Source: Lineus longissimus (taxonomy: Eukaryota; Nemertea; Pilidiophora; Heteronemertea; Lineidae). From it: DNA of 64,000 nucleotides. Both the position numbers and the translations under genes were made by a program. The stretch's first letter is position 1, and every line of letters begins with the position of its first letter. Positions 9,266 to 58,682 of this stretch are shown here, one piece after another. A model generated the notes under the pieces. That model was given only the letters and a program-made list of their open reading frames with translations. It was not told the origin of the DNA and did no database searches. The stretch spans positions 4,057,501-4,121,500 of the forward strand of contig NC_088325.1 of the NCBI RefSeq assembly GCF_910592395.1. Direction: 5' to 3'.

Positions 9266-9589
9266 ACACATCAACACCTACTAATTAATGGGAGCTCTTT
9301 TGGCAAAATATAGTCTTTTTATTTTTTGAGAAAAAAATTCTTGACTCGCGAAAATATACTGCCGCGAATACGTCCATCGCCTGCGTACATTTTCTGTTCA
9401 ACAGTATGGAACTTGCATAAAATGGGCCATTGCATACACGAACAGGTCTTCCAAGTCCCTAGTTTCAAGTATTACATATTTCGTATTAAACATAACACAT
9501 ATTGGTCCAGTCGAGTCTGATCCCTTTTATGCCAGGTTAATTTCAATGATGATGGTCAATGTAAGTCATTTTCGATATCGAACGATTCA

Positions 9590-13165: not shown

Positions 13166-13176
13166 TGGGAGTGAAG

Positions 13177-13272
13177 CCCCCGAGACGCCAACTTAAACGC
13201 CTATCCCATTGTTCTAGCTCTTGATCACCATGGGGAACAATGGGACAGGCGTTCGCGTTGGCGTTTCGGGGG
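13177..13272. repeat. ~96-bp hairpin repeat (copy 1)
   Basis: Arms 13177-13213 and 13235-13272 (gacgcc..cgcctatcccattgttc and its complement) surround a ~20-nt loop. Similar hairpins lie at 30806-30900 and 22331-22428, so this is a small dispersed family. Confidence 0.7.
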
Positions 13273-14300
13273 ATTTGCGAAAATCACAAATGTTGGCTTA
13301 CTTAAAGCTTATTACCCCTTCCAGCTGCTGACTACTCTCTCTCTCTCTCTTTATTTCAGTTCCACCCCTCACACCAACAGTCACACATCCATCGCAGGTC
13401 AATGTGGGAGACACTGCAAACCTCACCTGCAATGCAGAAAATTTCCACGTGACGAAACCAGTCACTTATAGGTGGACTAAGAATGGCGAAACTCTATTAC
13501 CAGGGACCTTTGCTAATGGTGCTCATCTTATTTAACCCGTCACGCTGGGGCATGCTGGAAAATATGTATGTGTCGCAGAAAATGAAGCTGGATCTAAGTC
13601 AAGCGCTGAACATGAGTTTGTTGTAATTAGTAAGTATTGTTTGTTGTTTATGTTTGGTGCGTTTTCGGTAAACTTAGCGCTACATCCAGCTGATTTCAAT
13701 CGGTTGCTCATGCCACTTCACATTACTTCCCCTAGCAAGACGAATTAACGGCCCGATGAACAGTTTGTATAGACGCCAGAATTGGCACAACTATCTCATA
13801 ACTTAGGTTGCAACCGTTGCTTCATTTAAGGTCCACCCTCTACCCCCAGCAAACTCAAAGTAGTGAACACAACTGCCGTAGCAGTAACTATCGAGTGGAT
13901 CTCAGAATTCGATGGTGGATCGAAGCAGAGGTTTTACGTCCAATACAAGCAGTATGCCGACAACTGGGATGTTGCCGCAGAGGTTCCTCAAGGAGGAATA
14001 ACTGATCCAGGTCTCAAGAAAGCCGTGTATCATAGGATTATGGGTCTTAAGTCGAATGTTGGGTATATATTTAGGGTGCGCGGCAAGAATTCTATCCCAG
14101 GAACTCACACGAGTAACTTCAGCAACATAACATCTGAGAAAACACCAGGTTTGTTTTTTTTTCTAACAGACACACCCATTCGGAATACAGTTCATCACTG
14201 AGCTCCAGTTAATCACCTCTTGCGAAAACCATTAAATGCATATCATCGGTTTCTATGAATTTGGACCGGTATTACAATTTTGTGCGTTTCTGCGAAGGCA

Positions 14301-14589
14301 CAGAAGGCTCATTCCAAATGCGAAATTCCAAATTCCAAATTCGAAATCTGATCTGACCAATCCGATGAGGTTTTGCTTTCGACTAATACGCTAACTGATT
14401 GGTCAAAATCAAAACCTCATCCGATTGGTCAGATCAGTTTTCGAATTTGGAATTTCGCATTTTGCATTTCGAATTCCGCATTTGGAATTTGGAATTTCAA
14501 ATTTGCATATTGGCTATTTGTTTGGTAAGACCTGAATTAGGAATTTGGAATTTGGAATTCCGCATTTCGGATTTGGAATGAGCCTTCTG
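14301..14589. mobile_element. 289-bp palindromic MITE in intron 4 (copy 1)
   Basis: Both ends carry cagaaggctcattccaaat as inverted repeats. The arms continue as runs of gaaattccaaattcc, and a second inverted pair (gatctgaccaatccgatgagg) flanks the centre. The duplicate is at 31969-32257. Confidence 0.8.
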
Positions 14590-16871
14590 GGCTTTCGTGC
14601 GTTTCCGTGTTGCCCAATATTGTTTGTTTTCTGTTTTTCCTTTTTGGCAAGTCTTGGTTTCTCTATCTGTTTAGAGAATTCGAAGTTACAATGGACTGTG
14701 GAGAACAACCGCATACAGGTGTTACACCGGCTTCTGAAAAGAATAAGCAACTGCACAGGTGCCTCCCCCGCCTGGGCGTCGAAAATGTATAAATACAGTG
14801 GTTTCTATCCCGGTACTGCGCAACTGACTAGACGTCAACAACGGCTAGCGCACATAACTCCTCAATATCATTTCTCCATATAACAAGTATGTCCTATAAA
14901 TAAACATTTTCTTCAACTCTTATCATCGCATGATCATTGTTTAAACCGTTTTTCTTCAAAGTTGTCCTTTATCCATTTTGTAGAGAAACCCCAAACGACC
15001 CTCATAGGTGTAAACCGGATAGACAACATAGTTACGGTGCGCTGGAAACAAGTGACTGGAAAATATACAGCAATTAAGATCGTGTACTGCCAGGAAGGTA
15101 CTGAAGACTGCAGGAATTCCACCGTGCCTAACCCAGATGATAACATTGCAGCCTTTCTCGTTGATGCCGACAGGACATATTATTATTTTGTGGTGGTTGA
15201 AGATGGTGGGGACGTTGTATACAGGAGCACGGTTTTTGTTGATTTTCACACAAACACGTCAGGTGAGTCGGGTTTGGCTTAAGTTGTGGATACTTGTATC
15301 GACATTCTTCGAAAAACTCGTTGAGACCCAGTGTCATGTATCAAATCCCTCTTATATAGCTACATACTTTTATTTGTATGTACTATTATATTACCAGATG
15401 GAATTTCGACAGAATATAGAACCGTCGGATTAAATTGACAGTTTGGCCCCGTCAGTTTGATAATTTTGAAAGCATGACAGCGTTGAGCGAAAACTCGTCT
15501 TGTTCGGCCATTCGCTCACAGTTGATCATGCATTCGGCACTAAACTTGATGCAGCTGCTGGTTGCGAAAGCACACCAAACAGACCACTTGGATTCGCAGT
15601 GACTGAGACAGTGATCGATGTAGTTTTTCACCAACCAGACAGTTGACCCCAATTGGTCTGTGTTCAGAAGCTGGTCATCTATATTTTTTATCACTAGCAT
15701 ATTACATGCAATTGTTTGTCTTCGTCACATTCCTGGCTATGGTGTTGCATAGCAAAGCTTTCCGAGATCATAACTAAGAAAACATGTATAAAGTGTAACA
15801 GATCAGGTATCAGTCTGACCTCAATAGCTCATAAGATTAGCAAGGCAACTGGGAAACCAATTTGTCTACAAATGTATTCATTTTACTTTATAAGCTCTCC
15901 TAACTAGTCAGATGAAGATTTAATTAATCAAAATGCTGTTATTGTTTTTTAACAGTTTTTCCTCTTGTTGGTGGTTTGGTAGGAGAAGCAGTCATTGTAG
16001 CTATCGCAGGCGTCATTTTGGCAGTTGTTCTGTGGTAAGATATTAAATACAGTCTGATACATAGTTACCAATATTTACATCTACAGGTTTCTTGACGCTC
16101 GCATACCTTACGATATCTAATTAAAAACACCAGAAAATATCAACACATGAAGCTAGCCCATGAAATATTAGACAACTTATATTTACGGTCAACTTGGGTG
16201 TGAGATATGTTGTTTTTTCCCTACAAAATTGCTTCCAGCAGGACCGTGACTTCTCCAAAGATGGTAATCGAAAATAATAAAATCGCTATCAACAGTACAC
16301 TAGAATGTTATCTAACCATAGGCCGACCAGAAATTTAAAAAGCATGTCCAAAACCGCATTGCACCACTAGCAAATTCTTATTTCATGCAGTCTACCAATA
16401 AACTAGAGTAACTGCGAAATATATACTCACATTTATATTGAATGAACCTGTAACGCATAATGCCGCGCCCCCAAATTGCTCCAGCCACGGCACCATAAAA
16501 CGCATCACCATGGTAAATCATGTGCCGATTTAAATGTTCGAATTGGGTTACGTCATAAGGACGGGATGTTAATTCCATTCCAAATGCTTAACAGAGCTAA
16601 ATCACGTCATGTAGTCCAGATGTATCAGGTTACTCGAACTTCCACGTACATTGATTGTGTTAAGCATATTCGCCAGGTCTCATTAAGCTTTTTTACTTCC
16701 GTAGGAAACGTTCACTGGCGCGATGGGGGAGAAAGCAGAGTCATCGACCTGCAAATGGCATCGCAGATAAAGATGATACTGGAATCAGGGAGAACCAGCT
16801 ATCTACAAATGACACCGCAGATTACGATGATACAAGGATTGTATTTAGAACAGACGGAAATAGCTCTGTAC

Positions 16872-17390
16872 TTTTGTGGTATGTATTCATAGCAAAGATA
16901 CATCATATATCAGGTAGGTTTTCAATTTGAACTATGGCACGTTTCTTAACCGCCAAAGCTATGAACTTGAAACTTGGTACATATAACCACCTATATCAGA
17001 TAACCTCTGGTGCTGAATTTCGGTCCGACCTGATTCTCAACTTGGCCACCAGGGGGCCGAATGTGGATGTCTTAAAAGTGTGATATCTTGCTTATGACTT
17101 GTTTTCGATAAAACTTTTGTCGTAGGTACTCATAGCAAGGATACATCATGTATCGTACTGGTTTTTAATTTGACCTACTTTTCAAGGTCACAGAGGTCAA
17201 ACGGCAAAAATTGGCTGTTAGAGTGTAACTTTGGCACGTTTCTTTTAAAACGACTGAAGCTATGAACCTGAAACTGGGTATACATGGCCGTATAGGTCAG
17301 ATAACCTCAGATAACACATTGCAGTCCAATCTGATTCTCAACTTGGCCACCTTGGGCCCAAATCTGAAAACTTTCAGAATTGTGATTATA
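16872..17390 (+). repeat. Satellite segment at the segmental duplication joint
   Basis: Begins inside a B-type satellite unit (tttgtggtatgt...). It drops about 60 bp near 16930 relative to the array, then continues as unit C and the divergent partial unit, as at 3850-4310. Receptor exon sequence lies immediately to the left, so this is the recombination joint. Confidence 0.9.
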
Positions 17391-17715
17391 GCACCAGTCT
17401 GATGAACATGGGACCAGCTAACCCACCATACAGTATTACATGTACTTGCACATGGTTTTTGATTTTACCTCATAAAACTTTTTTATTTGGCTACATACTG
17501 TAACACTTTCTGTAACTGGCATGAATTAATTGTCTACTAAATATACTTACGGTGAGCACAATGGCCTCTGGCCGTTTCATATTAATACCGCTTTACCGCA
17601 CAGACTTACTAGCTCTCGGTTACACAAATTTTAAGATTGAAATTAATTGAGTTTAAGATGTTTAAGGAATTGAAGGATACATGAAGTTTGCTTATTATGC
17701 ACAGTCTATTGTTTG

Positions 17716-18410
17716 CACAGTTGGCTTGCTGGTTGTCAATTGGATTTGACCGACTCCAAGGCTGTCTCTTCAGTTGACCGGATGGTTGTGAATCTCTCTG
17801 ATGGGTTGGCCGGCTGTAATATTGTATATTCAGTTGACTAGATGGTTGTGAATCTCTCTGATGGGTTGGTCGGCTATAAGGCTGTCTCTTGAATGGATGG
17901 TAGTGAAACTGTTAGATGAGTTGACCGGCTGAAAAGCCGTCTCTTGATGAGTTGACTGGCTGGGTGTGAATCTAACTGATGAGTAGACTGGCTGTAAGGC
18001 TGTCTCTTGAGCTGATTGGATGGTAGTGACTATATCAGATGAGTCGGCTGGTAAGGCCAATCTCTTAAGTTGACTGGCTGGTTGTGAATCAGTCTGATGA
18101 ATTGACAGCCTGTAAGGCTGTCTCTTAAGTCAACTGGCTGTTTGTAATTCTGTCCAATGAGTTGTAAGGCTTTAAGGCTGTCTAATGAGCTGACTTGCTG
18201 GCTGTGAATCTGTCTAATGAGTTGACAGGCTGTTAAGCTGCCCCTTGAGGTGACTGGCTGGCAGTGAATCTGTCTGATGACTTGACCAGGAATAATGTCG
18301 TCTCTTGAGTTGACTGGCTGGTTGTGAAGCCCTTTGATGGGTTGACAGCTGTAAAGCTGTCTCTTGAGTTAACTGGCTGGTTGTATATACATGTATGTCT
18401 GATGAGTTTT
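17716..18410. repeat. ~60-bp minisatellite, about 11 copies (copy 2)
   Basis: Near-identical duplicate of the array at 4640-5330, differing by scattered substitutions and an 8-bp insertion near 18390. Confidence 0.88.
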
Positions 18411-18785
18411 AAGCCGATTTAGAACTGTTCAAGGGCCAAAACTAATCTTGCTTCAAATCATCGTCTTCACGAACAATCCTAATGACACAGCAATTTTCCA
18501 TACCAAACTAGTGCGCATAAAACCCCTCAAAATCACTTCGTTTCATGAGAATCTTTTCGTCAATAGCTTGAAATGCAATAAGACAGCTTTTTAATATTTG
18601 GGATGAAAAAGGCCGGAGAAAAGTCTTGTATCGTGGATGAGGTAATTCACCACATTCTGATTGCAATAGCGGCCATTTCAAGGATGGACGGATCGACGTC
18701 GGTATAAGTAGTTTCGGTCATGCGCAAGGAGGTTGCACGCATGGGTCACTTGGCTAAATATGTGTAAAGTATTTATTACACATTT

Positions 18786-18972
18786 CGATGCTCGACACCC
18801 GTGACAGATCTAAGCGCTTTTGGGATATCATATTATTACTCCGGTCTCCACAGAAATCAATCAGGGATTTCAATGAGAAACCAGAAGGCGCTCACTGGAA
18901 CTCGACAAGTTGGGGAACTAAGCAGTGACTCGGCCGGGAGTCGAACCTCCTCCACTGCGCTACCGCTGCCCC
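18786..18972 (-). repeat. tRNA-like SINE (copy 2)
   Basis: Duplicate of 5700-5886, with the same closely spaced Pol III A-like and B boxes on the minus strand. Confidence 0.6.
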
Positions 18973-20262
18973 ATACCATTCCCAGGGGTCAATGCGCTCC
19001 CCATTTCCGGTGGCTCTTATTGACCCCTGTATACATTCATATATGACAGATAACGTCTCCCCCAAAATCCAGAGGTGACGTAGCAAAATGACCTATTACC
19101 CGTCTACTTTGCCGTGACGTGTCACTACGGTTTCTACAAGACAAACATATTTCTGTGGCAAACCAAATAAGCTTTCAATTGAGAACTGGTCTTATGGTAG
19201 ACATAAATACAGATATCTGATACAAACATACAAAATTAAATTCTTTGTCGCTAATTTCCATATTACATGTGCCACCTGCAGCAAATAAGGTACCATTTAA
19301 AAAAACCAAGTGGCTGTCATTTAATCCTGATGACAAGCAGGCATTTCACAATAATCATACAGCACATGGTTAGTATTTGTCTGTGGTATGGTAGTTAGTG
19401 TCGTATTTTAATGCAGGTTTATTTGACGCATTGAGGAAATTAATCATAGTAATATATATGACCAAAATCAAAAGAGATTTCAACCCTATTCTCGGAGGCT
19501 TTAATTGGTGTTCACATGATAACCAGAAGCACAATTTTCACATTAATAATCTGATGCTAATACGAGTAATTAAATGACATGTGATATCGAGTGACGCCAT
19601 CGATATTAATGTAAATTGTCATTAACTTATCACAAAGTTTATTTAGATATTTCCAAGGAATATTGAGCGCCCGGAAATTGAGCTCATTGACCCCTGGGAA
19701 TAGAGGTTGCACGCTGCCAACCAGTAAACTTACATTCTGCATATTTCACTTGGGTGCAACGAGACTCAGGAACGCAATACAAGTCATAGTATTAAGGGCA
19801 GTCATGAATAATTATAGGATAATAACTATACAATTAACAAACACGAGTTCAGAGTACATATTTGTTAGTATACAATAACTTCTTAGTCAGTTATATTCGT
19901 CTGTCCCGTAGTATCATATCACATCATATTATAGTCATATGGCATTCCTGCCGCGGAAAATGCTTTGTTTAAAAGTCTATATACATGTAATATGATAATT
20001 TGCCACAATAGCGATGTCAGGGAATTCAAAACAGTAGGTCTGACTAGGAAAAGGCCAACCTGGTTTCATCAAGTGACAAAACTTTATTTCATACCGCCAA
20101 GAGTCATTGTGTTCAAGGAGACAATATTCAATACCATCAAGAGTCATCGCCTTGATCAGGTGGAGTTACCTGGCAGATGTTAGTTAAGATACAAGTGTAA
20201 AATCGTTACACTTTTCTCGGAGTTCGTCATCTTATACTAAAAGAGCTTTGACCGCTCCCACG

Positions 20263-20308
20263 ATGAAACTTCTACCATCTTTGGCATTTATGCTTCTCCA
20301 GTTTCAAA
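20263..20308 (+). CDS. Receptor exon 1: start and signal peptide
   Basis: The ATG at 20263 is followed by Lys and a hydrophobic stretch (LLPSLAFMLLQF), a typical signal peptide. The donor gtaagt follows at 20309. The exon ends in phase 1 and joins exon 2 to keep the frame. The 5' flank differs from copy 1 by a ~16-bp insertion at about 20233-20249. Confidence 0.78.
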
Positions 20309-23300
20309 GTAAGTAATTTTTGCGAACGTCGATTGTTTTTCTTTTGTGTCAGTTTTGATTTATTTTGCTGGTGTCTTACAAGCATAATCTGTATTTTAAA
20401 TGATTTTATATGCCATCGACTCATTTTTCCAAGGATCAACTCGATATGTGACACTCAGCGCTCAGACGTAATGATGACGTCACATCAGTAGCAGCGAATT
20501 GCCATACAAATCATACCATACAAAGAGGATTTGAACTTTGAAATCGGGCAAACCACCCCAGGAATTGCAGGGAAAGAGGCCCAATTACCAACTGTCCAAC
20601 TTACAATGTAGCTGATTGACATAGAATACCCAAGTGACCACTGGATGCAAGCAATACCCCAATGGTTTAGCTGTCAATGCCATTCGAGACGGGGAAAGTG
20701 GAGTATACATCAAATTTCCAGATGCAACATCCACATCCATTTCAACACCAAATGACAAGCTCTGCACCAACTTCAGGGCAGGGTGTCTGCTATCCCTACA
20801 GCAGCCCAACACCTGTCCGAGTCCAAAGCTAAGTGTGACAATGTTATCACTCTAACAGTTTCCATGTCCACTGCACAAGCCCTAGTATATTAGAACTCGG
20901 ACAAAATCATCGACACGCTCAAGTTCAGCCTATCAAACCTCTAAAAGAATAGCAGAGTTGTGATACAATGGATCCCTGCACACTGTGGCATCCCAGGAAA
21001 TGACAGCGCTGATCTACTTGCCAAAGATGGAAGCCAACAGCATCAGGAAGAATTCTGCACCATCTACATGGAGGCAAGACACTTCTGAAACAGGCCCGCA
21101 AAAACACCTGGCAAGAGAGAAGAGGGGACCTCAGATGCAACACTCTCCTTGACATGGACAGAAAAGCTGCGACCGGGCTTGCTCAAAAAGTCATAACACC
21201 ACAAAAAATAATTCACATTGAAGGGTCGTTTGATGAGTAATGTCTTGAGTCATAAGGTTGCAACTGACTTTCTTTTTAACGCGTTATTTAACTACTTTCA
21301 GATATTCTCGGTATGACGATAACTAATGCCCTCAGTAATTTACGTCCGCGACTCGGCCAAACGATAACGCTAAATTGTAACATTGCGGGAGAACCCGCAA
21401 AAAGTGTAATGTGGTGGAAAGACAAGAACCGCAGCCCAGGAGCATTACTTCTGTCGTACAATTGTTCAGTTGTTCGAAAGGAGTACAAATCAAGATTAAG
21501 AACGACTCGATGTGATATGAATAACTTTGATTTTCAATTAAGTAATGTTCGAACGTCGGACCGCGGGGAATGGGTGTGCGAGGCTGATGGACAAGAGGCC
21601 ACAACTAAACTGAGATTGGATGTCTTAGGTAAGTCTTAAAAAACACATACACCTATGCAGAACATACGTTCTCCATTAAAAGGGTGGACTGTGTCAAGGT
21701 CTGGGATTTCGGATTGTTTTCCCTCTCGTTTGTAACGACAAATTAGGTAGACCATTTGAATGCTGTTTGTGCATGTCTTCTCCTGTTGTTCTCCCCAACT
21801 CAGGCATGGGAGGGACTATCACTCTATACAGTAAATCTTGCATGTACTGTAGAACCAAAAAAAAACACGTGCAGGATATTTGTGCCAGTAGGTCATACCC
21901 CTAGAAAATATTCCGCCGCGAAAATCGCTTGCTTTTCAGCAAGAAGTCAATCTCACTGTTGCCATGTTCCCAGTGGAAATGTAACGAGCAATTAATGGTA
22001 GCGCCTATGCCGATCGCAGCTTACTGGGCCATACAAAGAGGTGATTAATCAGAGACTGTGTGTACCCTGTGCAATTGGCAAATATCATGTTTACACCTAA
22101 CAAACACATATTCCACCTCGATCTTCCTCAACATTAAATTTTGCCTCATTATGCTCATCTGTGTGTGTGCTCTAGGCTTAATTACTCCCTACATTAAAAC
22201 CTGTTGACAGTGGGTCTGCGTATGATAGGGAGTTTCGCGATTCTCCCTCATTGTTCGACATCGAGATCGGGAGGTCGAAAAATGCGTTTTGGGGGATTTG
22301 CTCCCTGATATTAGGGAGTTTTCGCAAATCTCCCGAAACGTCAACGCGAACGCCTATCCCATTGTTCGACATAGTTTTCGGGAGGTGGAACAATTGTATA
22401 GGCGTTCGTTCATGCTGGCGTTTCGGGGGATTTGTGAAAACTCCCTATAGACAAGTACACATCAACACCTTCTAGTGAATAGGAGCTCTTTGGGCAAAAT
22501 ATACTCTTTTTATTTTTTGAGAAAAAAATTCTTGACTCGCGAAAATATACTGCCGCGAATACGTCCATCGCCTGCGTACATTTTCTCTTCAACAGTATGG
22601 AACTTGCATAAAATGGGCCATTGCATACACGAACAGGTCTTCCAAGTCTATGGCAAGCCAAAGCGGAATTTATTCAAGACTTTAGAATAACCATTCAAGA
22701 AGTTAAATATAAGTTCAAGAAGGAAATATATGTTCAAGACTAAAATATGTTCAACCTTGAATCAAATGTTTTCAACCTTAAATAAAATATGTTCAACCTT
22801 GAATAAAATATGTTCAACCTTGAATAAAATATGTCCAACCTTGAACAAAATATATTCAACCTTGAACAAAATATATTCAAGACTCACGTGACCATATTCA
22901 AGACTCACGTGACCATATTCAAGACGCACGTGACCACAAAATTGATGACGTAGAGCGTAGAATCTGTGGTACTTCTGATGCGTTCTGTTTCACGACGTGA
23001 TTGATTGCCTGTATAGCCTAAACACTCAAACATGTCAAAAGACAACGAGAATCCGATACAGTGGTATGAAAGGTGAGAGGCATTGCGCATTTTGAACCTA
23101 TAATTTGCCTGATATGTCTGTGAAACATGTATCGACTCTGACATTCACTCGGCATCCATGTCGTGATGTGTAGGATTACAGTACATGTCAGGTGTAGGCG
23201 GCTAGGTACGTGTACAACCATGTGTCAAAACCTTCGTGCGAACAATTCGAGCTCCGAAACGCAACACAAGTACCATGGGTTCGGGAAAGTCTGGACGCGG

Positions 23301-26300
23301 GTTCGGGAAAGTCCGTAAAGCATCAAAACATGAGCAACAACGTCATCAATTTTGTGGTCACGTGCGTCTTGAATATGGTCACGTGAGTCTTGAATATATT
23401 TTGTTCAAGGTTGAATATATTTTGTTCAAGGTTGGACATATTTTGTTCAAGGTTGGACATATTTTATTCAAGGTTGAACATATTTTATTCAAGGTTGAAC
23501 ATATTTTATTTAAGGTTGAAAACATTTGATTCAAGGTTGAAAACATTTGATTCAAGGTTGAACATATTTTAGTCTTGAACATATATTTCCTTCCTGAACT
23601 TATATTTAACTTCTTGAATGGTTATTCTAAAGTCTTGAATAAATTCCGCTTTGGCTTGCCATACAAGTCCCTAGTTTCAAGTTTTACATATTTCGTATTA
23701 AACATAGGACATATTGGTCCAGTCGAGTCTGATCCCTTTTATGCCAGGTTAATTTCAATGATGATAGTCAATGTAAGTCATTTTCGATATCGAACTATTC
23801 AGGAGAAAATTAAGCCCAGGCCTATATTTTCATGACTACAGTATTGTATGATCATTGGCTTGCTGAACTTTACGTCGTACAATAGCAATGGACCCGGATC
23901 AGGGCGAGTTGAACACATGTGTGAACTGAACGCATGCAATGACTTTTTATTACTGCAAGAACATTGGCAGTTTGAAGAACAATTACAAAACTTAGAGGTG
24001 AATTGGGTGTAAATATGAACATTCATGGGGTTACTGGTATAAACGTTGAGCAACTGCTGGTTGGCCGGCCGCACGGAGGCGTGGCGATTGCCTGGGACCA
24101 AAGAATGGACGCGGTTGTTACACCTGTACAATGGGTTTCGAAACGTGCATGTGCTATTGAGGTTAAAGTTTAAAATTAGAAAGCGGTAGTATGTAAACAC
24201 TGAAACGTTTCAAAAGAAACAGGTCAAACGAAACGAGTCAAAAATAAGATATGGCATAAAAATGAATATTACTGAATAATTATACTCATGATCTGTTATA
24301 ATGATTACAATAATTATGTTTGCGTAGTTTGATAGTCTGGATCGATTTTTAAGGGAAATTGAATTTGGTAAATTGTTTGCAACACGGCGACCCACCTTGG
24401 CATTCCACATTTTCAGCGCAATAAGTAAATTGGCCTCGTCCCCGTGCCAATCTCCAAAAGAAGAGTTAATATTCAAAATAATATTATCAGTGCAGTGCCC
24501 TAGTAAGCGCGCAGCGCCTTTAGGTTTGGGGGAAACCCCCCAAACGCCCTGGTTGGGAACCTGCTATAGTTTCTTCCGCCAATTTTTTTGTTTTGATAGA
24601 CAGTTTTCTCCGTGTATCTCTTTAGCAGTAACTCAACTCCATCATCATCAATAGCCGGCAAAGAAATGGAAAATGTCCCCCCCCCCGAAAGGTGTCCGGA
24701 CTAGATAGTCTGGCACTCTGGCAGATTCTAATGTAAAGTGCAAGCTCTATTGAACTCACGCAACTGTCGACATGGAGAGCCCCCCCCCCAACCCCCGTCC
24801 CTCTGACATGTTTTAGCTAGTGCATTGGGGGAAAGGCCCCTCAACCCCCTATTGGCCTCTCAATAAGTCCTTCTGAGCTGTTTACCCCGGGGCGCTTTGA
24901 TGGAACCTCCAAACCTTCATGATGGTGCAGTCATTTGACACGCTTAACCCAGAGCGAGGAAGAGGTACTCCTTTGATGGTACCCTTACTGCAACCCTCAA
25001 CCATCATTACCCTTCCTTTTCACTGGCATGATATTGGCAAGACTACCAATTTTCAACCATCAACGGTCCCGACTCAACTTACCTAACTGCAATCTTCCCA
25101 ATGACTTAAAATTCATAAAAACAATGTCATCTACAGATTTGCATGTCGTGTCATCATTGGGACATTTTATAACCAAAGCTTTCAAAATTAGGAACGTAAA
25201 TGTTGAATACGTTCCTAAATATTTCTTGTCCTGTAAATAATCATAGCACTTACTACAATTTTTTGGTCTGTTTGAAATTACATGTACATGCAGTTGCCGC
25301 ATTATTTGTGTGTTTACTGTCACTGTGTCTTCATAATGCATATGTCTCTGTTTTCTTCAGAAAACTGGAGCGCCTTTAGACCTCTGATTAGCTGTGCTGT
25401 AACGATAGCAACGTGGGATTGTGGTTATATTGTAAATTTATTGTTTTGATATTCTGATAGTAATGTACATTTGTATTTGTGTTTCGTGCCTTATATGCAA
25501 AGATTGTGTTTTGGCCAATAAATTTCATTTCATTTCATTTCATTGACTGGTGGCTTCCTTGAGACAATTGCTTGTGATCGTACCTGGGCAACCAATTCAA
25601 GGGGTCAGGGATCAGATTTTTCCCCCACCAACGTGTTGCCGAATGGTTAATCCATAAAAAATTGGTTGGAAAGGGTTTTTGCAGGCCAAGAGACTTGAAG
25701 ACACTTGACTCTTGAGGAACACCAGACTGATGAACAAAGAACCTGAGGAACATAGAACCCTCTTCATACCTGGGAGCATAAAAAGCCTGTTAGCGAATAT
25801 TGATTATTCCTTAGAAAAAACCAGAAGATCTGCAAAACCAATGGTACCCCATAAAAACATACATTCCTCACGTGTCTTCGGATCCTACCACGGCCCATGT
25901 GGAATTCGTTCAAAAGGTTTATTGAAATCTCAAAATAATTTTTTTTTCTCGAACGCCTGCCCGTCTTTTGCTTCATTATTTCGGGATCATATCCATTTTA
26001 AGCATCTTTTGGATATTATCACTAAAGTATCAAAAATCAAAACACATATGTCGGGGGGCGAACCCCCAGAAATTGAAGTTTGATTAAAAAACAGTGAGAA
26101 TAATCGTGTGGTTCTCTCTCGGAGCTCAGAATAGTCGAGTTGCTTCATTCGCGCGTTTATCTCTTCTGGCGGCCATTTTAAGTCAAATTTAAGCCATTTG
26201 AAAAGAATCCATGGACTTGAGAAACATTGTTTACATTGGATACGTCGTATGCACGTTAACCATAGTAGCGCTTCGCGCTTATTATCTCTGCCCGAATTGG

Positions 26301-29300
26301 CTTCCATGTTGGCGAATCACTGTACATTATGCATTGCGATCGTGCAGTGTAATTGAACTGACAATGGCCGCGGCCACAGATTCGTACTCACTTTGGGGAC
26401 GAAATAACAAAAGGTTATGGCGTTTAAGATTAAACAATTACAACTGAAATGTTTGAATGAACCACCGTTGTCATGTCTTAAAGTTTCGCATCAATATATG
26501 CCTTGAACATCTTGTAATAATGAAATGAGTGGATCCAGCACATTCGGCAATAATGGCGGCCAATTAGGTCAGGGAAATGCCAGATGAAATGCGGAATAAC
26601 ATGATTAATGCTATGACCTCTGATCTGCTGATGCTGCGTGTCTGAGTGCTACATTCGAAAGAGTTCAAGGCAAAATTGGACATGTTCAATTCAACGTGTT
26701 CCAATAAATCGTCGTTATTGTCGTTAAAGTATACGATAGCGCTTAATATTGGGGCAGGGTACGAGGTTACGTGGGGAAATACCGGTTTATCTAAATTGTG
26801 AAAGAGCTGAACGGACTGTGGTGAATCTATTTATAATTAATCGCTTTCTGTTTGAATTTCTGTGGCTTTTATGCGGAAAAAATACAAAACAGAGCCTTGA
26901 AAAACGACACATCCAAATAGTGCATTTTCAATTTCACGTTTTGACCATTTATTTGACTCGTTTCGTTTGACCTGTTTCTTTTGAAACGTTTCAGTGTTTA
27001 CATACTACCTTAGAAAACAAAGTTATATTGTTAAATGTGTACATGCCGACCGATTCGGGAGGCCACCAGAACCTTATAGAATTTAACGGCGTTCTGCAAG
27101 AAATCTCTGCGATACTTGCAGCTGCAAATACCCCGGATATCATAATTGGTGGTGACTGGAACACATATTTTAGTATAGCTGATTCAGCACTTACCCGAGC
27201 TCTCTTAAAATTTATGGAAGAGGAGAGTTTACTTTGTGGAAAGACACATATTGCTTGTGACGTAGATTACACATATGAGAGCAAAATAACAGGTGACCGA
27301 TCACGTATCGATCATTTTTTGGTATCGGAGAGTGTTTTTAATAGAATCAAAAAATATAAATAGTGCCCTGCACAAAGCAGACAACCTCTCGATCTGACCA
27401 CTCCAGTTTACAACAGGTTGTTGAAGTAAATAATCAAACTGATAAAAAGTCCGATATCAATGATAGAAAGGCGGTTAAAACCCAGTTATGGGACAGGAAG
27501 TATTAACAGCCAAATTAGGCGAAATAAATGGTCTCTTTCATGCACTTAGGTGTAATAATTACTCGTGTACGAACTACACTGGGATATAGAAAAAGTCCAC
27601 GATGATATAGTTGGGCCTGAATGTCCTCACGCTCCCAAATGGTTAGAATCGCGAGGGTTTCCACCTCTGTCCATGAACAGCGAGCCATAGTTATGAAAAA
27701 GCACTAGAATTTACTTAAATTAAGAATTGAATAATGAAATGAGAAATGAGAACGAATCAGAGTTGACCTGTTGACAGAAATACCGCGTGTTGTTTTGACA
27801 GAACCAACACTTCCGCTCATGCGCAATACGTTCACATTGACATGCCACCTGTAGCCGTACTTAGTAACTTGATCTTAATCCGGACTAATGCGGTTCCATT
27901 ACAGGTAATTTCTGCTTTAGATCCGGGTCTATTCTAAGTTCGGCTTAAATCCGCTTGTCCTATCCGCACTTAATAAGACCGCTCTTAGTGAGAGCCGGAC
28001 TTGTTTAGTCCGGACTAGCTGTAATGGAATCACAACTAATTCGGATGTAGTCCGCACTTTCCTGTAGTGGAACCGCAACTATAGTATCGGCATGCGTTAG
28101 GGCAGGTGATGAAACCATACCTTTTAGTAATAAGAGTACCTTTCGCGGTAAAGCAGGTTGGGACGAAGAAATCAGTGAGCAAAAGAGACGGGCTCGGCAT
28201 GAGTTATGGAAGGAAAATGGGAGACCAAGAAATGGTTACGTCGCAGGCATACGTCGCCACACTAGGGCACAATATCATTTAGCGGTAAAACGGGTGAAAA
28301 CGAATCAAGATAAGGTAGCTGCAGAAAAATTGGCAAACTCAACTAGGGATAAGAGTAGTAAGGAATTCTGGACAGATGTAAAGAAAATAAAAGGTACATG
28401 TCGTGTGACACCTAATACTATGGACGGTGTTGAGGGGAGTGAGGCGATATGTCAAGTTTTTGCAAATAAATTCAGTAGGTTATACCACTCAGTTCCGTAT
28501 GAAGTTGATGAAATGCATGAGTATTTTACAAAATTGCTGTGTTGGTCAATGCCAAAATGATCATCGAGTTAATGTGCAGGAAGTTATTCAGGTGGTGAAA
28601 CAGCTTAAAGCGGGAGAAAAAGACAGTATTTCAGACATTAGATCTGATCATTTTATAAATGGTGGTCCTAAACTTTATACGTATATATCGTTTCTGCTTA
28701 GTTCGATGATTGTCGGTAATTTCAAGCCTCAGCAACACATCTGTTTCCAATCTCTAGGCTTTTGCTTAGGCAGTTTTACGATGGTCATCCATCACCTCAA
28801 GTTGAGTTTGTCACAAAATACCTTCACTTCTCCCGGACATGAAAGTTCATGAACCATATAACATGTTGCTTTGTGAGGAATAAAGTTAGAAGTTATGAGA
28901 AAGTATTCAACGTGTACAGTTCAGTTTATGCACGATTCTTTAGCCCATCATCACTAAGCCTTATAACTCCCTGGTCGGAATCTGGGATCAACGAGAGGGA
29001 CCGCAATACACCACATGGTGCCGTGACCAGGATAACACAACGCAAGCATACATGAGCCGCCAAAAAATGGACAAAGTAGATACATTGAAGGCCAAACGGG
29101 CCGTTTTAGTCGACAGTGTCAAGAAGGACTATGACAAAGCAATGGTGAAGACGACAGCCCTGTCCGAGGACGAAATCACCGAAATGGAAGCCACATTAGA
29201 AGGACTACATGAAGCATACGAAACATCCTTGAAACAAAGTGAAGAGATAGACGGACGTTTATCTAGCATGAAGGATAACAAAGACGCACTCACGGAGGAA

Positions 29301-32300
29301 ATAGCCGAAGCAAGAACAATCCGCAGTGACCAACGGGTCAAATTACTTAAGATGAAAAAGTTACTTGAAAAACTGAACGCCAGTACCAAACAGACACCAC
29401 CGGTAGCCGTTACGAAAATGCTAAAGACCGCTCAACTACCAAAGTTGAAACTTCCAACGTTTGACGGGTCTTACACGAAATGGTCCAGTTGATAATGATA
29501 AGTTGGTTATATAATATCAGTATAAGATTTGAGGTTGAGGTCAGCAGTCGAGTTCAGCACCTTTATTTATAAGGTCATTACGTCAGAAGAGTCAAGTAAC
29601 CGCAGTTTAGAATTTGAGATGATTAAGTGCATGTTTTCATTTTGACACAGATTTAGACATGAACTTTCTGGGGTTGGCTGCCACATGGCAGCATGTTCTT
29701 TGGCGCCTTTGCCTATGCAATTATTTTAGCGCCGTCATTAATCGGGCTTAGGAAAATGTTGAAGGTTGCAAGTGAGTTCTCGCTTGAGTATATGATTTCT
29801 TTCAACGCGTTAAAAAATAAATTTCTTGTATTTGGTTGTAATGATCCTCCACCCGAGGTGGTTTTTCAAGGTATTGCAATCAGAGTATCCAAAGAGTAAA
29901 TTCATTTAGGGGTACTTCTGGGTCATGACGTACGACGTAGGCGGATACAACTATGTATAAATGATCTTTATAAACGCACGAACATTTTAATGTCTCAGTT
30001 TAGATTTGCCAACTGCAGCACAAGATATAGACTATTTAAAATCTACTGTATGTCCCTATATGGATACCAACTATTACACATGTCAAAATCGTATATGGAA
30101 GACCTCTACATCGCATGGCGTAAATGCATCAGACATGTATTGTGTCTCTCTTACCGTACACATAATGAGCTATTAACAGATATCATTCAAAATTGCTGTA
30201 TTCAAAAACAATTGGAAAAGAGAATGGTGAAATTCTTAAGTGGCTTGTTTGTTGTAAAAAACATGTACACTCGGAAATGTATCCAGTTGATAGTTGCAGG
30301 CAGCAGTTCACCATTAAGGAAAACTTTTACCTACATTACTCATAGATATAAATGGAATAGGTACAAGTTGCCACTTTTAGGATATATGTATGTTAGATTA
30401 GGTTTATAAATTGCCAGGTCAAACGAGGGTGGGATTTCAAAGTAGGGAACATTTAGAAATAAGTGATCAGGGGAGCAACTTTTTGTCGTCTACTGAAATA
30501 TAAATACTTCTAGATTTGTTTGTGTACAATGTAAGTGTGAATACTTTGATTGATTTTTCTATAAGGCTTGTATTACCAGGAGAGGATGTCATTGTGTAGA
30601 AAGTTATGACGAGAAATTGGTTGTTCTTTTGTTGGCACCCGCACAAAATGTTCATGCACGTTCACCATCTTTCTGTACTTATAGTAAGAATAAACATATA
30701 TACATTTAGGGGATTCCCGAAATGACTGTAACTCTGACATTGTTGGCTGTGGTTATTGCTACCGGCCTCTCTCCCGCCATCTATACCCGGTATTAGGGAG
30801 TGAAGCCCCCGCGACGCCAACTTAAACGCCTATCCCATTGTTCTAGCTCTTGATCACCATGGGGAACAATGGGACAGGCGTGCGCGTTGGCGTTTCGGGG
30901 ATTTGCGAAAATCACAAATGTTGGCTTACTTAAAGCTTATTACCCCTTCAAGCTGCTGACTACTCTCTCTCTCTCTCTCTTTATTTCAGTTCCACCCCTC
31001 ACACCAACAGTCACACATCCATCGCAGGTCAATGTGGGAGACACTGCAAACCTCACCTGCAATGCAGAAAATTTCCACGTGACGAAACCAGTCACTTATA
31101 CGTGGACTAAGAATGGCGAAACTCTATTACCAGGGACCTTTGCTAATGGTGCTCATCTTATTGAACCCGTCACGCTGGGGCATTCTGGGAAATATGTATG
31201 TGTCGCAGAAAATGAAGCTGGATCTAAGTCAAGCGCTGAACATGATTTTGTTGTAATTAGTAAGTATTGTTTGTTGTCTATGTTTATTGCGTTTTCGGTA
31301 AACTTGATAATATTGAGACTTTAGCGCTACATCCAGCTGATTTCAATCAGTTGCCCATGCCACTTCACATTACTCCCTCCAGCAAGACGAATTAACGGCC
31401 CGATGGACAGTTTGTATAGACGCCAGAATTGGCACAATCATCTCATAACTTAGGTTGCAAGCGTTGCTTTATTTAAGGTCCACCCTCTACCCCCAGCAAA
31501 CTCAAAGTAGTGAACACAACTGCCATAGCAGTAACTCTCGAGTGGATCTCAGAATTCGATGGTGGATCGAAGCAGAGGTTTTACGTCCAATACAAGCAGT
31601 CTGCCGACAACTGGGATGTTGCCGCAGAGGTTCCTCAAGGAGGAATAACTGATCCAGGTCTCAAGAAAGCCGTGTATCATAGGATTGTGGGTCTTGAGTC
31701 GAATGTCGGGTATATATTTAGGGTGCGCGGCAAGCATTCTTTCCCAGGAACTCACATGAGTAACTTCAGCAACATAACATCTGGGAAAACACCAGGTTTG
31801 TTTTTTTTTCCAATAGACACACCAATTCAGTTCATTACTGAGCTCCAGTTAATCACCTCTTGCGAAAACCATTAAATGCATATCATCGGTTTCTATGAAT
31901 CATTACTCTTAGCAGCGCATCACTAGGCTTGAACCGGTATTACAATTTTGTGCGTTTCTGCGAAGGCACAGAAGGCTCATTCAAAATGCGAAATTCCAAA
32001 TTCCAAATTCGAAATCTGATCTGACCAATTCGATGAGGTTTTGCTTTCGGCTAATACGCTATCTGATTGGTCAAAATCAAAACGTCATCCGATTGGTCAG
32101 ATCAGTTTTCGAATTTGGAATTTCGCATTTTGCATTTCGAATTCCGCATTTGGAATTTGGAATTTCAAATTTGCATCTTGGCTCTTTGTTTGGTAAGACC
32201 TGAATTAGGAATTTGGAATTTGGAGTTCCGCATTTCGGATTTGGAATGAGCCTTCTGGGCTTTCGTGCGTTTCCGTGTTGCCCAATATTGTTTGTTTTCT

Positions 32301-35092
32301 GTCTTTCCTTTTTGGCAAGTCTTGGTTTCTCTGTCTGTTTAGAGAATTCGAAGCTACAATGAAATGTGGAGAACAACCGCATACAGGTGTTACACCGCCC
32401 TCTGAAAAGAATGAGAAACTGCACAGGTGCCTCCCCCGCCTGGGCGTCAAAAATGTATAAATACAGTGGTTTCTATCTCGGTACTGCGCAACTGACTAGA
32501 CGCAAACAACGGCTAGCGCACACAATATCATTTCTCCATATAACAAGTATGTCCTATAAATAAACATTTTCTCCAACTCTTATCATCGCATAATCATTGT
32601 TTAAACCATTTTTCTTCAAAGTTGTCCTTTATCTATTTTGTAGAGAAACCCCAAACGACCCTCATAGGTGTGAACCGGATAGACAACATAGTTACGGTGC
32701 GCTGGAAACAAGTGACTGGAAAATATACAGCAATTAAGATCGTGTACTGCCAGGAAGGTACTGAAGACTGCAGGAATTCCACCGTGCCTAACACAGATGA
32801 TAACATTGCAGCCTTTCTCGTTGATGCCGACAAGACATATTATTATTTTGTGGTGGTTGAAGATGGTGGGGACGTTGTATACAGGAGCACGGTTTTTGTT
32901 GATTTTCACACAAACACGTCAGGTGAGTCGGGTTTGGCTTAAGTTGTGGGTACTTGTATCGACATTCTTCGAAAAACTGTAAAGCTGAAAATGCGTTAAG
33001 AACTAGTGTCATGTATCAAATCCCTCTTATACAGCTACATACTTTTATTTGTATGTACTATTATATTACCAGATGGAATTTCGACAGAATATAGAACCGT
33101 CGGATTAAATTGTCATTTGGCCTTGTCTGTTTGATAACAGTTTGGCCCCGTCAGTTTGATAATTTTGGAAGCATGACATCGTTGAGCAAAAACTCGTTTT
33201 GTTCGGCCATTCGCTCACAGTTGATCATGCATTCGGCACTAAAATTGATGCAGCTGCTGGTTGCGAAAGCACACCAAACAGACCACTTGGATTCGCAGTG
33301 ACTGAGACAGTGATCGATGCAGTTTTTCACCAACCAGACAGTTGACCCCAATTGGTCTGTGTTCAGAAGTTGGTCATCTATATTTTTTATCACTAGCATA
33401 TTACATGTAAATGTTTGTCTTCGTCACATTCCTGGCTATGGTGTTGCATAGCAAAGCTTTCCGAGATCATAAATTAGAAAACATGTATAAAGTGCAACAG
33501 ATCAGGTATCAGTCTGACCTCAATAGCTCATAAGATGAGCAAGGCAACTGGGAAACCAATTTGTCTACAAATGTATTCATTTTACTTTATAAGCTCTCCT
33601 CACTATTCTGATGAAGATTTGATTAATCAAAATGCTGTTATTGTTTTTTAACAGTTTTTCCTCTTGTTGGTGGTTTGGTAGGAGGAGCAGTCGTTGTAGC
33701 AATCGCAGGTGTCATTTTGGCAGTTGTTTTGTGGTAAGATACTAAATACAGTCTGATACATAGTTGCCAATATTTTCATCAACAAGTTTCTTGACGCTCG
33801 CATACCTTACGATATATATTAAAATCACCAGAAAATATCAACACATGAAGCTGGCCCATGAAATATTAGACAACCTATATTTACGGTCAACTTGGGTGTG
33901 AGATATGTTGTTTTTTCCCCTACAAAATTGCTTCCAGCAGGACCGTGACCAAAGATGGTAATCGAAAATAATAAAATCGCTATCAACAGTACACTAGAAT
34001 GTTATCTAACCATAGGCCGACCAGAAATTTAAAAAGGAAGCATGTCCAAAACCGCATTGCACCACTAGCAAATCCTTATTTCATGCAAGCTACCAATAAA
34101 CTAGAGTAACTACGAAATGTATACTCACATTTATATTGAATGAACTTGTAACGCATAATGCCGTGCTCCCAAATTGCTCCAGCCACGGCACCATAAACGC
34201 ATCACCATGGTAAATCATGTGCCGATTTAAATGTTCGAATTGGGTTACGTCATAAGGACGGGATGTTAATTCCATTCCAAATGCTTAACAGAGCTAAATC
34301 ACTTCATGTTGTCCAGATGTATCAGGTTACTCGAACTTCCACGTACATTGATTGTGTTAAGCATATTCGCCAGGTCTCATTAAGCTTTTTTACTTCCGTA
34401 GGAAACGTTCACTTGCGCGATGGGGGAGAAAGCAGAGTCATCGAACTGCAAATGGCATCGCAGATAAAGATGATACTGGAATCAGGGAGAACCAGCTATC
34501 TACAAATGACACCGCAGATTACGACGATACAATGATTGTATTTAGAACAGACGGAAATAGCTCTGTACAGACAGACACGAACATTGGGACTGAATACGAA
34601 AATCATCCATTTCACCCTAAACGTCCGCCCGACCAGAATGCTGCATTGCCTATGGTTATGGAGCCCGACGACCAAGAAAATGATGTAGACGTCGACGCAT
34701 ATGACTACGTAGATAGTCCTACGGCAAGGCAGCGAAGAGCTTCGGGCGAAAACCCAGCTCCTGAACCTGATGATCATCAAATGGAGTACGCAACCCCGTA
34801 TGAGCAGTTCGGGCAGGATGTCTCAAGCAAGAACAAAATGGGTCAGGAGAGACAAGAGCCTGAAGACACGGACAGAAACTTATCAATCCCCAAACAAGGA
34901 CAACCTGGCCAGAGCACAGCCGGAAGCAGATCAAGCCAATCCGATGGGGACAATAAGCGACCTAAAAGTTTCTCGAATGACGATATTGTTCACAGCCAAG
35001 AGTCAACATACGCCAATTTAGGTCGAGTAGAGCCTGTTCACCATGGAGAGTATCTGGACCTCAGACATGTCAGACGGTCATGTATGGAATAA
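20263..35092 (+). CDS. Ig/FN3 transmembrane receptor with ITAM-like tail (intact copy, 7 exons)
   Basis: Predicted single-pass surface receptor, 669 codons when the exons are joined: 20263-20308, 21302-21628, 30990-31259, 31478-31795, 32644-32922, 33655-33733 and 34402-35092. Phases are consistent at every junction (1,1,1,1,1,2). Order: hydrophobic signal start MKLLPSLAFMLLQ, Ig1 (Cys pair LNC / WVCEA), Ig2 (LTCNA / KYVCVAENEAG), FN3 (PPSTPSKLKV start), a divergent FN3-like module with its own Cys pair, a TM helix (GGAVVVAIAGVILAVVLW) flanked by a basic WKR stop-transfer, then ~230 tail residues. The tail has Y-E-N and Y-A-N (Grb2-type YxN), YDYV, YATP and YEQF, and ends with ESTYANL, ten residues, then YLDL: an ITAM-like pair. 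Inference: cell-surface recognition or adhesion with Src/Syk- or SH2-dependent signalling. The ligand is unknown, and orthology to any named receptor cannot be claimed. Confidence 0.85.
20580..21190 (+). pseudogene. Decayed LINE RNase H fragment in intron 1 (copy 2)
   Basis: Duplicate of 7500-8120. The WIPAHCGIPGN block is preserved at about 20980-21020, while the flanking frames are broken. Confidence 0.7.
21302..21628 (+). CDS. Receptor exon 2: Ig domain 1
   Basis: Acceptor ctttcag, donor gtaagt, symmetric phase 1-1. The Ig fold signature is TLNC, then MWWKDK, then DRGEWVCEA. There is an N-C-S sequon in the middle and two extra cysteines (NCS, TRC) that could form a second disulfide. Nearly identical to 8228-8554. 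Confidence 0.88.
22195..22460. repeat. Hairpin-type repeat with gggag ends (copy 2, longer form)
   Basis: Contains the 9110-9265 element plus an inserted hairpin with arms 22331-22367 and 22388-22428, related to the hairpins at 13177 and 30806. Confidence 0.5.
22643..23669. mobile_element. 1015-bp foldback element with 6-bp target duplication
   Basis: The element 22649-23663 is flanked by caagtc (22643-22648 and 23664-23669). Copy 1 at about 9452 has one uninterrupted caagtc, so the empty site is known. Its arms are about 300 bp, begin tatggcaagccaaagcgg and match almost perfectly. Inside each arm is a ~21-bp tandem repeat (ttcaaccttgaataaaatatg-like) and cacgtgacc boxes. The central ~390 bp is unique and non-coding. 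The architecture matches foldback-type DNA transposons; the superfamily is unknown. Confidence 0.9.
24176..27018. mobile_element. 2.8-kb TIR element with 9-bp target duplication
   Basis: The element 24185-27009 has perfect 58-bp inverted ends starting ggtagtatgtaaacac, flanked by ttagaaagc (24176-24184) and ttagaaaac (27010-27018). Copy 1 has the empty site at about 10805-10815. Inside are poly-C and ccc-rich stretches (24680, 24781), a (tttca)n tail at about 25521-25545 that looks like the 3' end of a nested retroposon, and open frames up to 123 codons (25712-26083) with no recognised domain. Perfect TIRs mean a recent insertion. A Mutator-like origin fits the 9-bp duplication. Confidence 0.85.
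27613..28083. mobile_element. ~470-bp insertion containing a ~200-bp MITE
   Basis: Absent from copy 1 (near 11395). The 3' part has imperfect inverted blocks: gcggttccattacagg near 27880 and cctgtagtggaaccgc near 28062-28077, with more pairing of agtccggact inside. The junction is flanked by tata. Confidence 0.6.
28711..29492 (+). mobile_element. Truncated BEL/Pao LTR retrotransposon: LTR and start of gag
   Basis: The LTR is 28711-29010, with TGT...ACA ends and an aataaa near 28879. A primer-binding-site-like tggtgccgtgacc follows at about 29016. An open frame from 29052 (146 codons) begins MSRQKMDKVD, is mostly charged and helical, and ends with LPKLKLPTFDGSYTKWSS. The LPK(L/I)xLPxFDG..xxW block is the hallmark of the BEL/Pao gag region (DUF1759). 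The frame is cut just after it. It replaces about 520 bp of LINE sequence present in copy 1. Confidence 0.8.
29493..29668. other. Unassigned filler between BEL fragment and LINE
   Basis: About 175 bp with no match to copy 1 and no recognised motif. It may be leftover sequence from the rearrangement that removed the middle of the LINE RT. Confidence 0.4.
30806..30900. repeat. ~95-bp hairpin repeat (copy 2)
   Basis: Counterpart of 13177-13272 just upstream of exon 3; the arms share gacgcc and cgcctatcccattgttc with their complements. Confidence 0.7.
30990..31259 (+). CDS. Receptor exon 3: Ig domain 2
   Basis: A (ct)n-rich tract and ttatttcag acceptor precede it; the donor is gtaagt; phase 1-1; 270 nt. 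I-set style: ANLTCNAENF, YTWTKNGE, then GHSGKYVCVAENEAGS. The codon matching the copy-1 stop is GAA here. Confidence 0.88.
31478..31795 (+). CDS. Receptor exon 4: fibronectin type III domain
   Basis: The acceptor atttaag (not the nearby cccccag, which would give a stop) keeps the phase and yields PPSTPSKLKVV, VTLEWISEFDGGS, FYVQYKQ and VGYIFRVRGK, the usual FN3 Trp and Tyr landmarks. The donor is gtttgt. 318 nt, phase 1-1. Confidence 0.82.
31969..32257. mobile_element. 289-bp palindromic MITE in intron 4 (copy 2)
   Basis: Same element and position as 14301-14589, so inserted before the segmental duplication. Confidence 0.8.
32644..32922 (+). CDS. Receptor exon 5: FN3-like module
   Basis: 279 nt, phase 1-1. 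VTVRWKQVTGK, IKIVYCQEGTEDC, then YYYFVVVEDGG resembles the B, C and F strands of an FN3 or Ig-like sandwich. The close C-x5-C pair is unusual for FN3 and may be a loop disulfide. Confidence 0.78.
33655..33733 (+). CDS. Receptor exon 6: transmembrane helix
   Basis: 79 nt, acceptor aacag, donor gtaag. Encodes FPLVGGLVGG followed by about 18 strongly hydrophobic residues with small-residue repeats. Ends in phase 2. Confidence 0.85.
34402..35092 (+). CDS. Receptor exon 7: cytoplasmic tail with tyrosine motifs
   Basis: The acceptor cgtag completes a Trp codon followed by KRSLARW. The ~230-residue tail is hydrophilic. Tyrosine motifs in order: ADYDD, TEYENH, AYDYVD, MEYATPYEQF, then ESTYANL (Tyr codon 35009) and GEYLDL (Tyr codon 35051). 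The last two Y-x-x-L boxes are ten residues apart and the first has Glu at -3, as in ITAMs. STYANL also fits the ITIM pattern S/I/V/L-x-Y-x-x-L. The stop is TAA at 35090. Confidence 0.87.
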
Positions 35093-35164: not shown

Positions 35165-35170
35165 AATAAA
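35165..35170 (+). terminator. Candidate polyadenylation signal
   Basis: AATAAA lies 73 bp after the receptor stop codon, a plausible signal for a short 3' UTR. A second aataaa is not seen close by. Confidence 0.55.
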
Positions 35171-58606: not shown

Positions 58607-58682
58607 CTGGAATAGGATGGAATGAGAGTCATTAATTTATCTACCTTTGGCTGCGCTCGATTTTGGTCTACAGGCTAGCTCC

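Follow-up and report, generated by a model that had tools for sequence, protein, structure and literature searches.

The stretch of DNA analysed here, hereafter the window, comprises 64,000 nucleotides of the nemertean Lineus longissimus (C19:4057501-4121500, where C19 is chromosome 18 with 15,888,539 bases). It contains a predicted gene of seven exons encoding a 669-residue protein with the order signal peptide-Ig-Ig-FN3-FN3-transmembrane (TM) segment-tail. The features are collected in Table 1. The cytoplasmic tail ends in two paired tyrosine boxes that resemble an immunoreceptor tyrosine-based activation motif (ITAM), and this two-tyrosine end recurs in a large array of related genes on the same chromosome.

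In all tests applied, the last exon of the model behaves as genuine coding sequence. It begins behind a splice acceptor, runs through 229 open codons to a TAA and encodes a tail of 229 residues. A stop-free run of this length has a probability of about 5e-6 at the same base composition, and of all open runs in the six reading frames of the window only two are longer, both of them retroelement frames. The upstream exons hand their frame on to it, with intron phases of 1, 1, 1, 1, 1 and 2 along the model. The original prediction had described an Ig-Ig-FN3-FN3-TM architecture. Pfam recovered both Ig domains and the first FN3 domain, and this part stands; exon 5, the proposed second FN3 domain, had no Pfam match and is represented by a model, in which AlphaFold folded this exon alone into seven strands with a mean predicted local distance difference test (pLDDT) score of 76. 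For the paralogue P0001, most of the ectodomain is modelled with confidence, and residues 409-693, including the TM segment and tail, have pLDDT <50. Searches of solved structures and folds returned NCAM2, PTPdelta, contactin and Robo as generic matches of the ectodomain. Since only generic Ig/FN3 receptors were matched, the ectodomain names no family, and we rejected it as a family marker.

Table 1. Features of the receptor gene and of the tandem duplication in the window (position 1 is the first base of the window).
Feature	Position	Strand	Evidence or remark
Exon 1, start codon and signal peptide MKLLPSLAFMLLQFQ	20263..20308	+	GT donor, phase 1; copy A exon differs by one base
Exon 2, Ig domain 1	21302..21628	+	Pfam I-set best stretch 22-119, V-set 33-112; AG/GT, phase 1-1
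Exon 3, Ig domain 2	30990..31259	+	Pfam Ig_3 best stretch 132-199, E 2.7e-21 for the protein
Exon 4, FN3 domain 1	31478..31795	+	Pfam fn3 218-300, 27.9 bits against a cut-off of 25
Exon 5, FN3-like domain 2	32644..32922	+	AlphaFold model of the exon
Exon 6, transmembrane segment FPLVGGLVGGAVVVAIAGVILAVVLW	33655..33733	+	low-confidence helix at the matching place in the P0001 model
Exon 7, cytoplasmic tail and stop codon	34402..35092	+	229 open codons; P0001 tail 73% identical
YDYV, conserved tyrosine site Y540	34700..34711	+	Y540 in 11/11, Y542 in 10/11 aligned tails
ITAM-like motif ESTYANLGRVEPVHHGEYLDL, Y643 and Y657	35000..35062	+	pattern match, family conservation, dN/dS
AATAAA polyadenylation-like signal	35165..35170	+	starts 73 bases beyond the stop
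Copy A of the tandem duplication	3849..16871	+	stop in Ig2 (residue 183); tail cut at the junction before the motif
Copy B, bearing the intact gene	16930..34568	+	longer via extra sequence in intron 2

The window protein ends ESTYANL-x10-YLDL, exactly as had been predicted, with Y643 and Y657 as the two tyrosines. Its tail carries eight tyrosines, and a single stretch fits Yxx[LI]x(6-12)Yxx[LI], namely Y643-ANL-x10-Y657-LDL (bases 35009-35062). The spacing of 10 lies inside the range of 6-12 and an E stands at -3 of the first tyrosine, so that the window agrees with the ITAM consensus, YxxL/I-x(6-12)-YxxL/I, including its acidic residue. Many textbook ITAMs have a narrower box spacing of 6-8, and the gap of 10 falls outside it. 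The first box likewise fits the immunoreceptor tyrosine-based inhibition motif (ITIM), [S/I/V/L]xYxx[I/V/L]; the second (GEYLDL, with G at -2) does not. YxN (as YENH), YDYV, YATP and YEQF, listed in the original prediction as further tail motifs, are all present as written; among these only the first YDYV tyrosine is invariant in the 11 aligned tails described below. Shuffling the window tail 200,000 times produced the ITAM pattern in 0.48% of cases, or 0.087% when D/E was required at -3. We regard 0.48% as modest and rejected a strong claim from the shuffles alone; a chance match is unlikely yet possible for a single tail, and conservation across the family is therefore the decisive evidence. 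As a control, the pattern occurred after the most hydrophobic segment in one of 11 non-Lineus Ig proteins (P0025, which is without a clear TM segment).

Protein searches yielded 20 annotated relatives, all of L. longissimus, the last three by way of a profile search. We concluded that the window and these relatives share one L. longissimus chromosome. Some of the database names among them (titin-like, hemicentin-1-like, contactin-5-like) seem misleading. Tail loci were sought throughout the genome (391,118,348 bases searched) with the tails of the window and of P0009 as queries, which matched 84 pieces (82 on C19) and 135 pieces (133 on C19), respectively. Merging of the pieces gave at least 82 tail-like loci, 80 of them on C19 (spanning 0.60-12.87 Mb), one on C3 and one on C17, the latter two counted by eye; these locus counts are lower bounds, and conversely some loci are fragments. 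Of the 42 loci having wider flanks, 35 have a TM exon close to the tail. The C19 loci L022-L028 have tails 93-98% identical to that of the window and no counterpart among the database protein matches. Annotation of the array seems incomplete.

Motif counts cover 62 of the 80 C19 loci, which were read as DNA, with the other 18 left out. The pattern SxYxx[L/I]-x(7-13)-YL[D/N][F/L] was present in 55 of the 62 loci, in 57 copies altogether. The seven loci without it are cut, broken or short: L039 is the truncated copy A of the window, L037 has YMDA as its second box and matches only tail residues 91-222, L082 and L083 contain frame breaks or stops, and L072, L076 and L081 are short fragments. All 57 copies have Ser at -2 of the first tyrosine. 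The last residue of box 1 is Leu in 54 copies and Ile in 3, and that of box 2 is Phe in 40 and Leu in 17; the boxes are separated by 10 residues in 35 copies, by 7 in 18, by 11 in 2 and by 13 in 2. Position -3 of the first tyrosine is E in 25 copies, D in none and another residue in 32. Codons of the two tyrosines vary silently between TAT and TAC (37/20 and 45/12). The pattern demanded both tyrosines and restricted the neighbouring residues, and conservation at the tyrosines is thus partly built in and not independent within the 55 loci; Ser at -2 and the TAT/TAC variation were not demanded.

The strict ITAM is found in only 17 of the 57 copies, 16 of which lie within 3.93-5.62 Mb, and the other 40 end YLDF. 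The ITAM consensus claimed by the original prediction therefore holds for the window and fails for most of the family, where box 2 is YxxL in 17/57 and YxxF in 40/57. As other subfamilies end YLDF, we call the family-wide module ITAM-like only; judged from sequence, the ITAM consensus appears confined to the subfamily of the window. In P0010, L053 and L054 the two-tyrosine motif occurs twice, together with repeated YILSDP / TYNDL units, which gives an extended multi-tyrosine tail.

Conservation was further assessed in an alignment of 11 tails, comprising the window and 10 of 17 relatives that were picked for having a window-type tail and are paralogues from one species. Five columns are invariant (D479, Y540, Y643, Y657 and L658), and the identical five were obtained with the full-length P0010 tail in the alignment (186 columns). 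The occurrence of Y643 and Y657 among the five invariant of 188 well-filled columns has a hypergeometric probability of 5.7e-4, with relatedness ignored. Among 16 tails of the window subfamily, the pooled ratio of non-synonymous to synonymous substitution rates (dN/dS) was 0.264 for the motif (22 codons) and 0.58 for the remaining 199 codons. A comparison of the eight copies on the plus strand with the eight on the minus strand gave 0.22 for the motif and 0.606 for the rest. These values pool 120 non-independent pairs with no formal test, and L023 adds little to them beyond the motif. The motif thus appears to be under stronger constraint than the rest of the tail. Outside Lineus, the protein searches reached 11 Ig proteins, with at most 41% identity and 45% query coverage. 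No tail homologue outside Lineus was present among the 28, 2 and 12 matches of three protein searches, which are word-based and of limited reach; two of them scored the best 7988 and 7992 candidates. The tail region alone matched only P0001 and P0002, and no orthologue in another species was seen in the protein searches, to which the profile search added only the three Lineus proteins. The original prediction had staked itself on the two boxes being conserved in orthologues. Both tyrosines are retained in 11/11 paralogous tails and at 55/62 loci; box 2 is mostly YxxF, and these searches found no orthologues to compare.

A second class of tails (P0007, P0012, P0013 and P0014) ends TVYA[E/K]LSF ... 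PY[A/S]TVDF. Ig1-Ig2 is common to both classes, with 56-71% identity between the classes and 57-87% within class I. On one strand, seven second-class tails at C19:11.45-11.69 Mb are interleaved with eight of the first class at 11.46-11.62 Mb (L009-L014, L087-L094); further second-class tails lie on C12, on C17 and elsewhere on C19. The two classes would resemble paired receptors with opposite tails. This stays a suggestion, because only SPYSTV among the second-class sites fits the ITIM formula. An Ig1-Ig2 tree of 11 proteins placed each tail class on its own side of one branch with a support of just 56/52, for which reason we rejected a clear split of the tail classes by ectodomain; with this support the tree speaks neither for nor against a single tail swap. 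P0009 has the FN3-TM-tail part of the window family beneath a different outer Ig (24% identical to Ig1 of the window), and it appears to reflect an exchange of outer domains. In P0014 a first-class tail lies ahead of a second-class receptor; probably two adjacent genes were fused in the annotation.

The window gene itself is the intact member of a tandem duplication. Copies A and B align in seven collinear blocks of 91.8-96.8% identity and differ at 30 of 1486 bases in their shared exon parts; near-identical tandem copies imply that the array was remade recently. Positive selection on Ig1 was not seen between the two copies (0 non-synonymous and 2 synonymous changes). In the first FN3 domain 9 of 10 changes are non-synonymous, but the sample is too small for interpretation and one copy is broken. 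Tandem repeats of ~301 bp occupy 2641-4300 at the left edge of the duplication, where position 16930 pairs with 3849, and may have mediated it. Broken retroelement pieces, recognised by eye from endonuclease- and reverse-transcriptase-like frames, lie at 26971-30409 and 10666-13100 in intron 2 of both copies, and intron 2 of copy B is longer than that of copy A.

The genome encodes candidate partners for such a tail. On C12 there is a gene with tandem SH2 domains, which its first SH2 exon identifies as SHP2 (E 1.2e-76 to PTPN11). Human SYK is matched on C4 by kinase exons within C4:25021383-25022838, with identities of 56, 68, 72 and 43% over 36-65 residues each; among the matches listed, other places are at most 53% identical to the human SYK kinase. 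SH2 pieces lie ~4 kb before these exons, at 25016820-25016963 and 25017321-25017494 (weak match, SYK residues 60-117). The C4 gene thus encodes a SYK-family kinase. A SYK kinase of schistosomes is said to have SH2 domains without the ITAM-binding sequence (PMC2820527; published sources are cited here and below for their accessible parts), and hence a SYK-family kinase need not bind ITAMs.

By analogy with Hydractinia Alr or Botryllus FcoR, whose mode of action it would share, the product of the window gene is most likely a self-contained phosphotyrosine receptor, one of a lineage-specific array. This single-pass surface receptor would bind its ligand through the outer Ig domains and signal from the same chain via the bipartite phosphotyrosine module at the extreme end of the tail; single-chain signalling had been proposed originally and is supported by the gene model. 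Upon ligand binding, a Src-type kinase would phosphorylate Y643 and Y657, both phosphotyrosines would be engaged by one protein with tandem SH2 domains (most likely the SYK-family kinase), and the signal would be activating. Array copies would duplicate in tandem, swap outer domains and get lost, with selection keeping the two-tyrosine motif. Such a pattern would be that of recognition receptors for pathogens or for self/non-self. An immune-type or phagocytic role is suggested by architecture, array expansion and analogy, and is the least secure step; the original reading as such a receptor is partly supported, and the array, the duplicate gene and the second tail class are additional to it. 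Taken as a whole, we consider a self-signalling recognition receptor with a bipartite phosphotyrosine module in a chromosome 18 array slightly more probable than not.

Several observations weigh against this explanation. When the SYK kinase domain was searched, another kinase gave the best E-value (38%, a longer single-exon match at C4:19516508), and the second SH2 domain of SYK was not seen in the part of the C4 locus that was read, so that the gene may be SYK itself or a SYK-like relative. The ectodomain is as like neural adhesion receptors as immune ones, and the closest database protein to the window gene is only 75% identical. Not every one of the 55 motif loci is an intact gene, since at least three contain stops in other parts of the tail match (immediately ahead of the motif in L023; also L041/L068 and L042). 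The rarity of the strict ITAM, the tyrosines demanded by the search pattern and the pooling of pairs in the dN/dS values count on the same side, as does the first box, to which we turn now.

As originally noted, box 1 also fits an ITIM, and it does so in 57/57 copies (SxYxx[L/I]). The receptor could then be inhibitory or dual, with box 1 acting as an ITIM and recruiting, together with box 2, SHP2 instead of SYK. An SHP2 tandem-SH2 gene is encoded in the genome, and YLDF, the second box in 40/57 copies, is poor for a classical ITAM. Against this, the boxes are 7-13 residues apart, with 10 or 7 in 53/57 copies, which is a SYK-type spacing, and box 2 of the window fails the ITIM formula; we regard an inhibitory role as unlikely. 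The generic likeness to NCAM2, PTPdelta, contactin and Robo would also suit an expanded family of cell-adhesion or neural receptors without an immune role, whose tyrosines serve adaptors or endocytosis, as YANL and YLDF each fit YxxPhi. Such a family would hardly explain why the boxes are constantly paired near the C-terminus with Ser at -2 in 57/57 copies. Moreover, 80 loci on one chromosome with decayed copies and exchanged outer domains would, in our judgement, be unusual for neural adhesion genes, and we find this alternative distinctly unlikely. Finally, the window gene could be a non-expressed copy, with function only in its paralogues. Its tandem neighbour is broken, and its best database match is 75% identical despite 20 annotated relatives. 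On the other hand, all seven exons, the splice sites, the frame and the polyadenylation-like signal are intact, close copies are constrained at the motif, and the loci with tails 93-98% identical are likewise missing from the protein matches, so this absence may only mean incomplete annotation. We consider a silent copy quite improbable.

The favoured self-signalling receptor array has counterparts in other animals. The paired receptors of vertebrates (FcR-like, Siglec, KIR/LILR) combine related outer domains and differing signalling tails in gene clusters; we found no relation to Lineus beyond the Ig fold, and the second tail class in Lineus is only ITIM-like. Hydractinia is a cnidarian, and its Alr proteins bind homophilically and have a domain make-up other than that of the Lineus receptor. 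Like the Lineus array, the Hydractinia allorecognition complex (Alr) contains clustered Ig-superfamily genes with many probable pseudogenes, and polymorphism of Alr1 and Alr2 has been reported (PMC11067881); ITAM/ITIM have been reported on Alr candidates (PMC12065747). In Botryllus schlosseri, 53 loci for fester co-receptors (FcoR) in the fuhc locus carry ITIM, hemITAM or core motifs (PMC12065747). They share with the Lineus genes a type I Ig-superfamily structure, a large linked family and long tails with tyrosine motifs, and Botryllus shows tissue rejection (PMC12065747). Their architecture of a V-type Ig, sushi and two C2-type Ig domains sets them apart from the Ig-Ig-FN3-FN3 order and two-box motif of Lineus; indeed, Pfam gave Ig and FN3 and no sushi domain in the window protein. 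Oyster CgIgIT2 is likewise a single-chain lophotrochozoan Ig receptor, with a classic ITAM according to a review (PMC11999971). It has five Ig domains, and FN3 domains and an array go unmentioned in the accessible text of that review, whereas Lineus has two Ig and two FN3 domains and an array. In Lineus ruber, 16 Ig + TM genes were reported as CRIg-like, putative complement receptors (PMC9835746); they share Ig and TM with the window gene, a comparison made by description only, and 'ITAM' occurs 0 times in the main text seen of that paper.

Graft rejection with specificity and memory is on record for Lineus ruber and L. lacteus (reported between 1974 and 1984; cited in PMC2248247). Those experiments concern congeners and not L. 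longissimus, a further point against our explanation, and the literature found, seen in part, names no receptor for Lineus graft rejection. Chromosome 18 might nevertheless hold the recognition complex behind nemertean graft rejection, with the two tail classes (SxYxxL...YLDF/L and TVYAxLSF...PYxTVDF) as activating and inhibitory partners, a tentative proposal that we rate as rather unlikely. If true, the complex, consisting of dozens of genes that share outer domains, would be a protostome counterpart of the natural killer (NK) receptor complex, Alr or fuhc. An array of such size with a selected two-tyrosine module would provide concrete candidates for graft-rejection receptors in a protostome. 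Furthermore, it would extend ITAM/ITIM-type recognition arrays to Spiralia, beyond the cnidarians and tunicates for which they have been argued (PMC12065747), and would allow testing whether ITAM/ITIM-type wiring is ancestral or was repeatedly reinvented. The original prediction had called the receptor undescribed, which stands only in that the literature found gives no description. No description of the array was found in the literature searched either, where coverage was partial with few subscription journals, hence weak evidence of absence. As far as seen, this kind of system is already known; what is new is its size, the phylum, the uniformity of the two boxes and a possible connection with a phenotype described long ago.

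The remainder of the window carries other features. Two kringle domains are encoded at 58086-58628 on the minus strand (Pfam E 2e-33). Part of a seven-transmembrane (7TM) receptor lies at 55159-55611 on the plus strand (Pfam 7tm_1 E 2.5e-7), and 49864-50181, which had no Pfam match, resembles by eye the first part of such a receptor. Near-identical reading frames at 53738-54031 and 54731-55015, ~1 kb apart, form a small tandem duplication. A retroelement like a long interspersed nuclear element (LINE) follows at 60122-62171 on the plus strand, with endonuclease and then reverse transcriptase.

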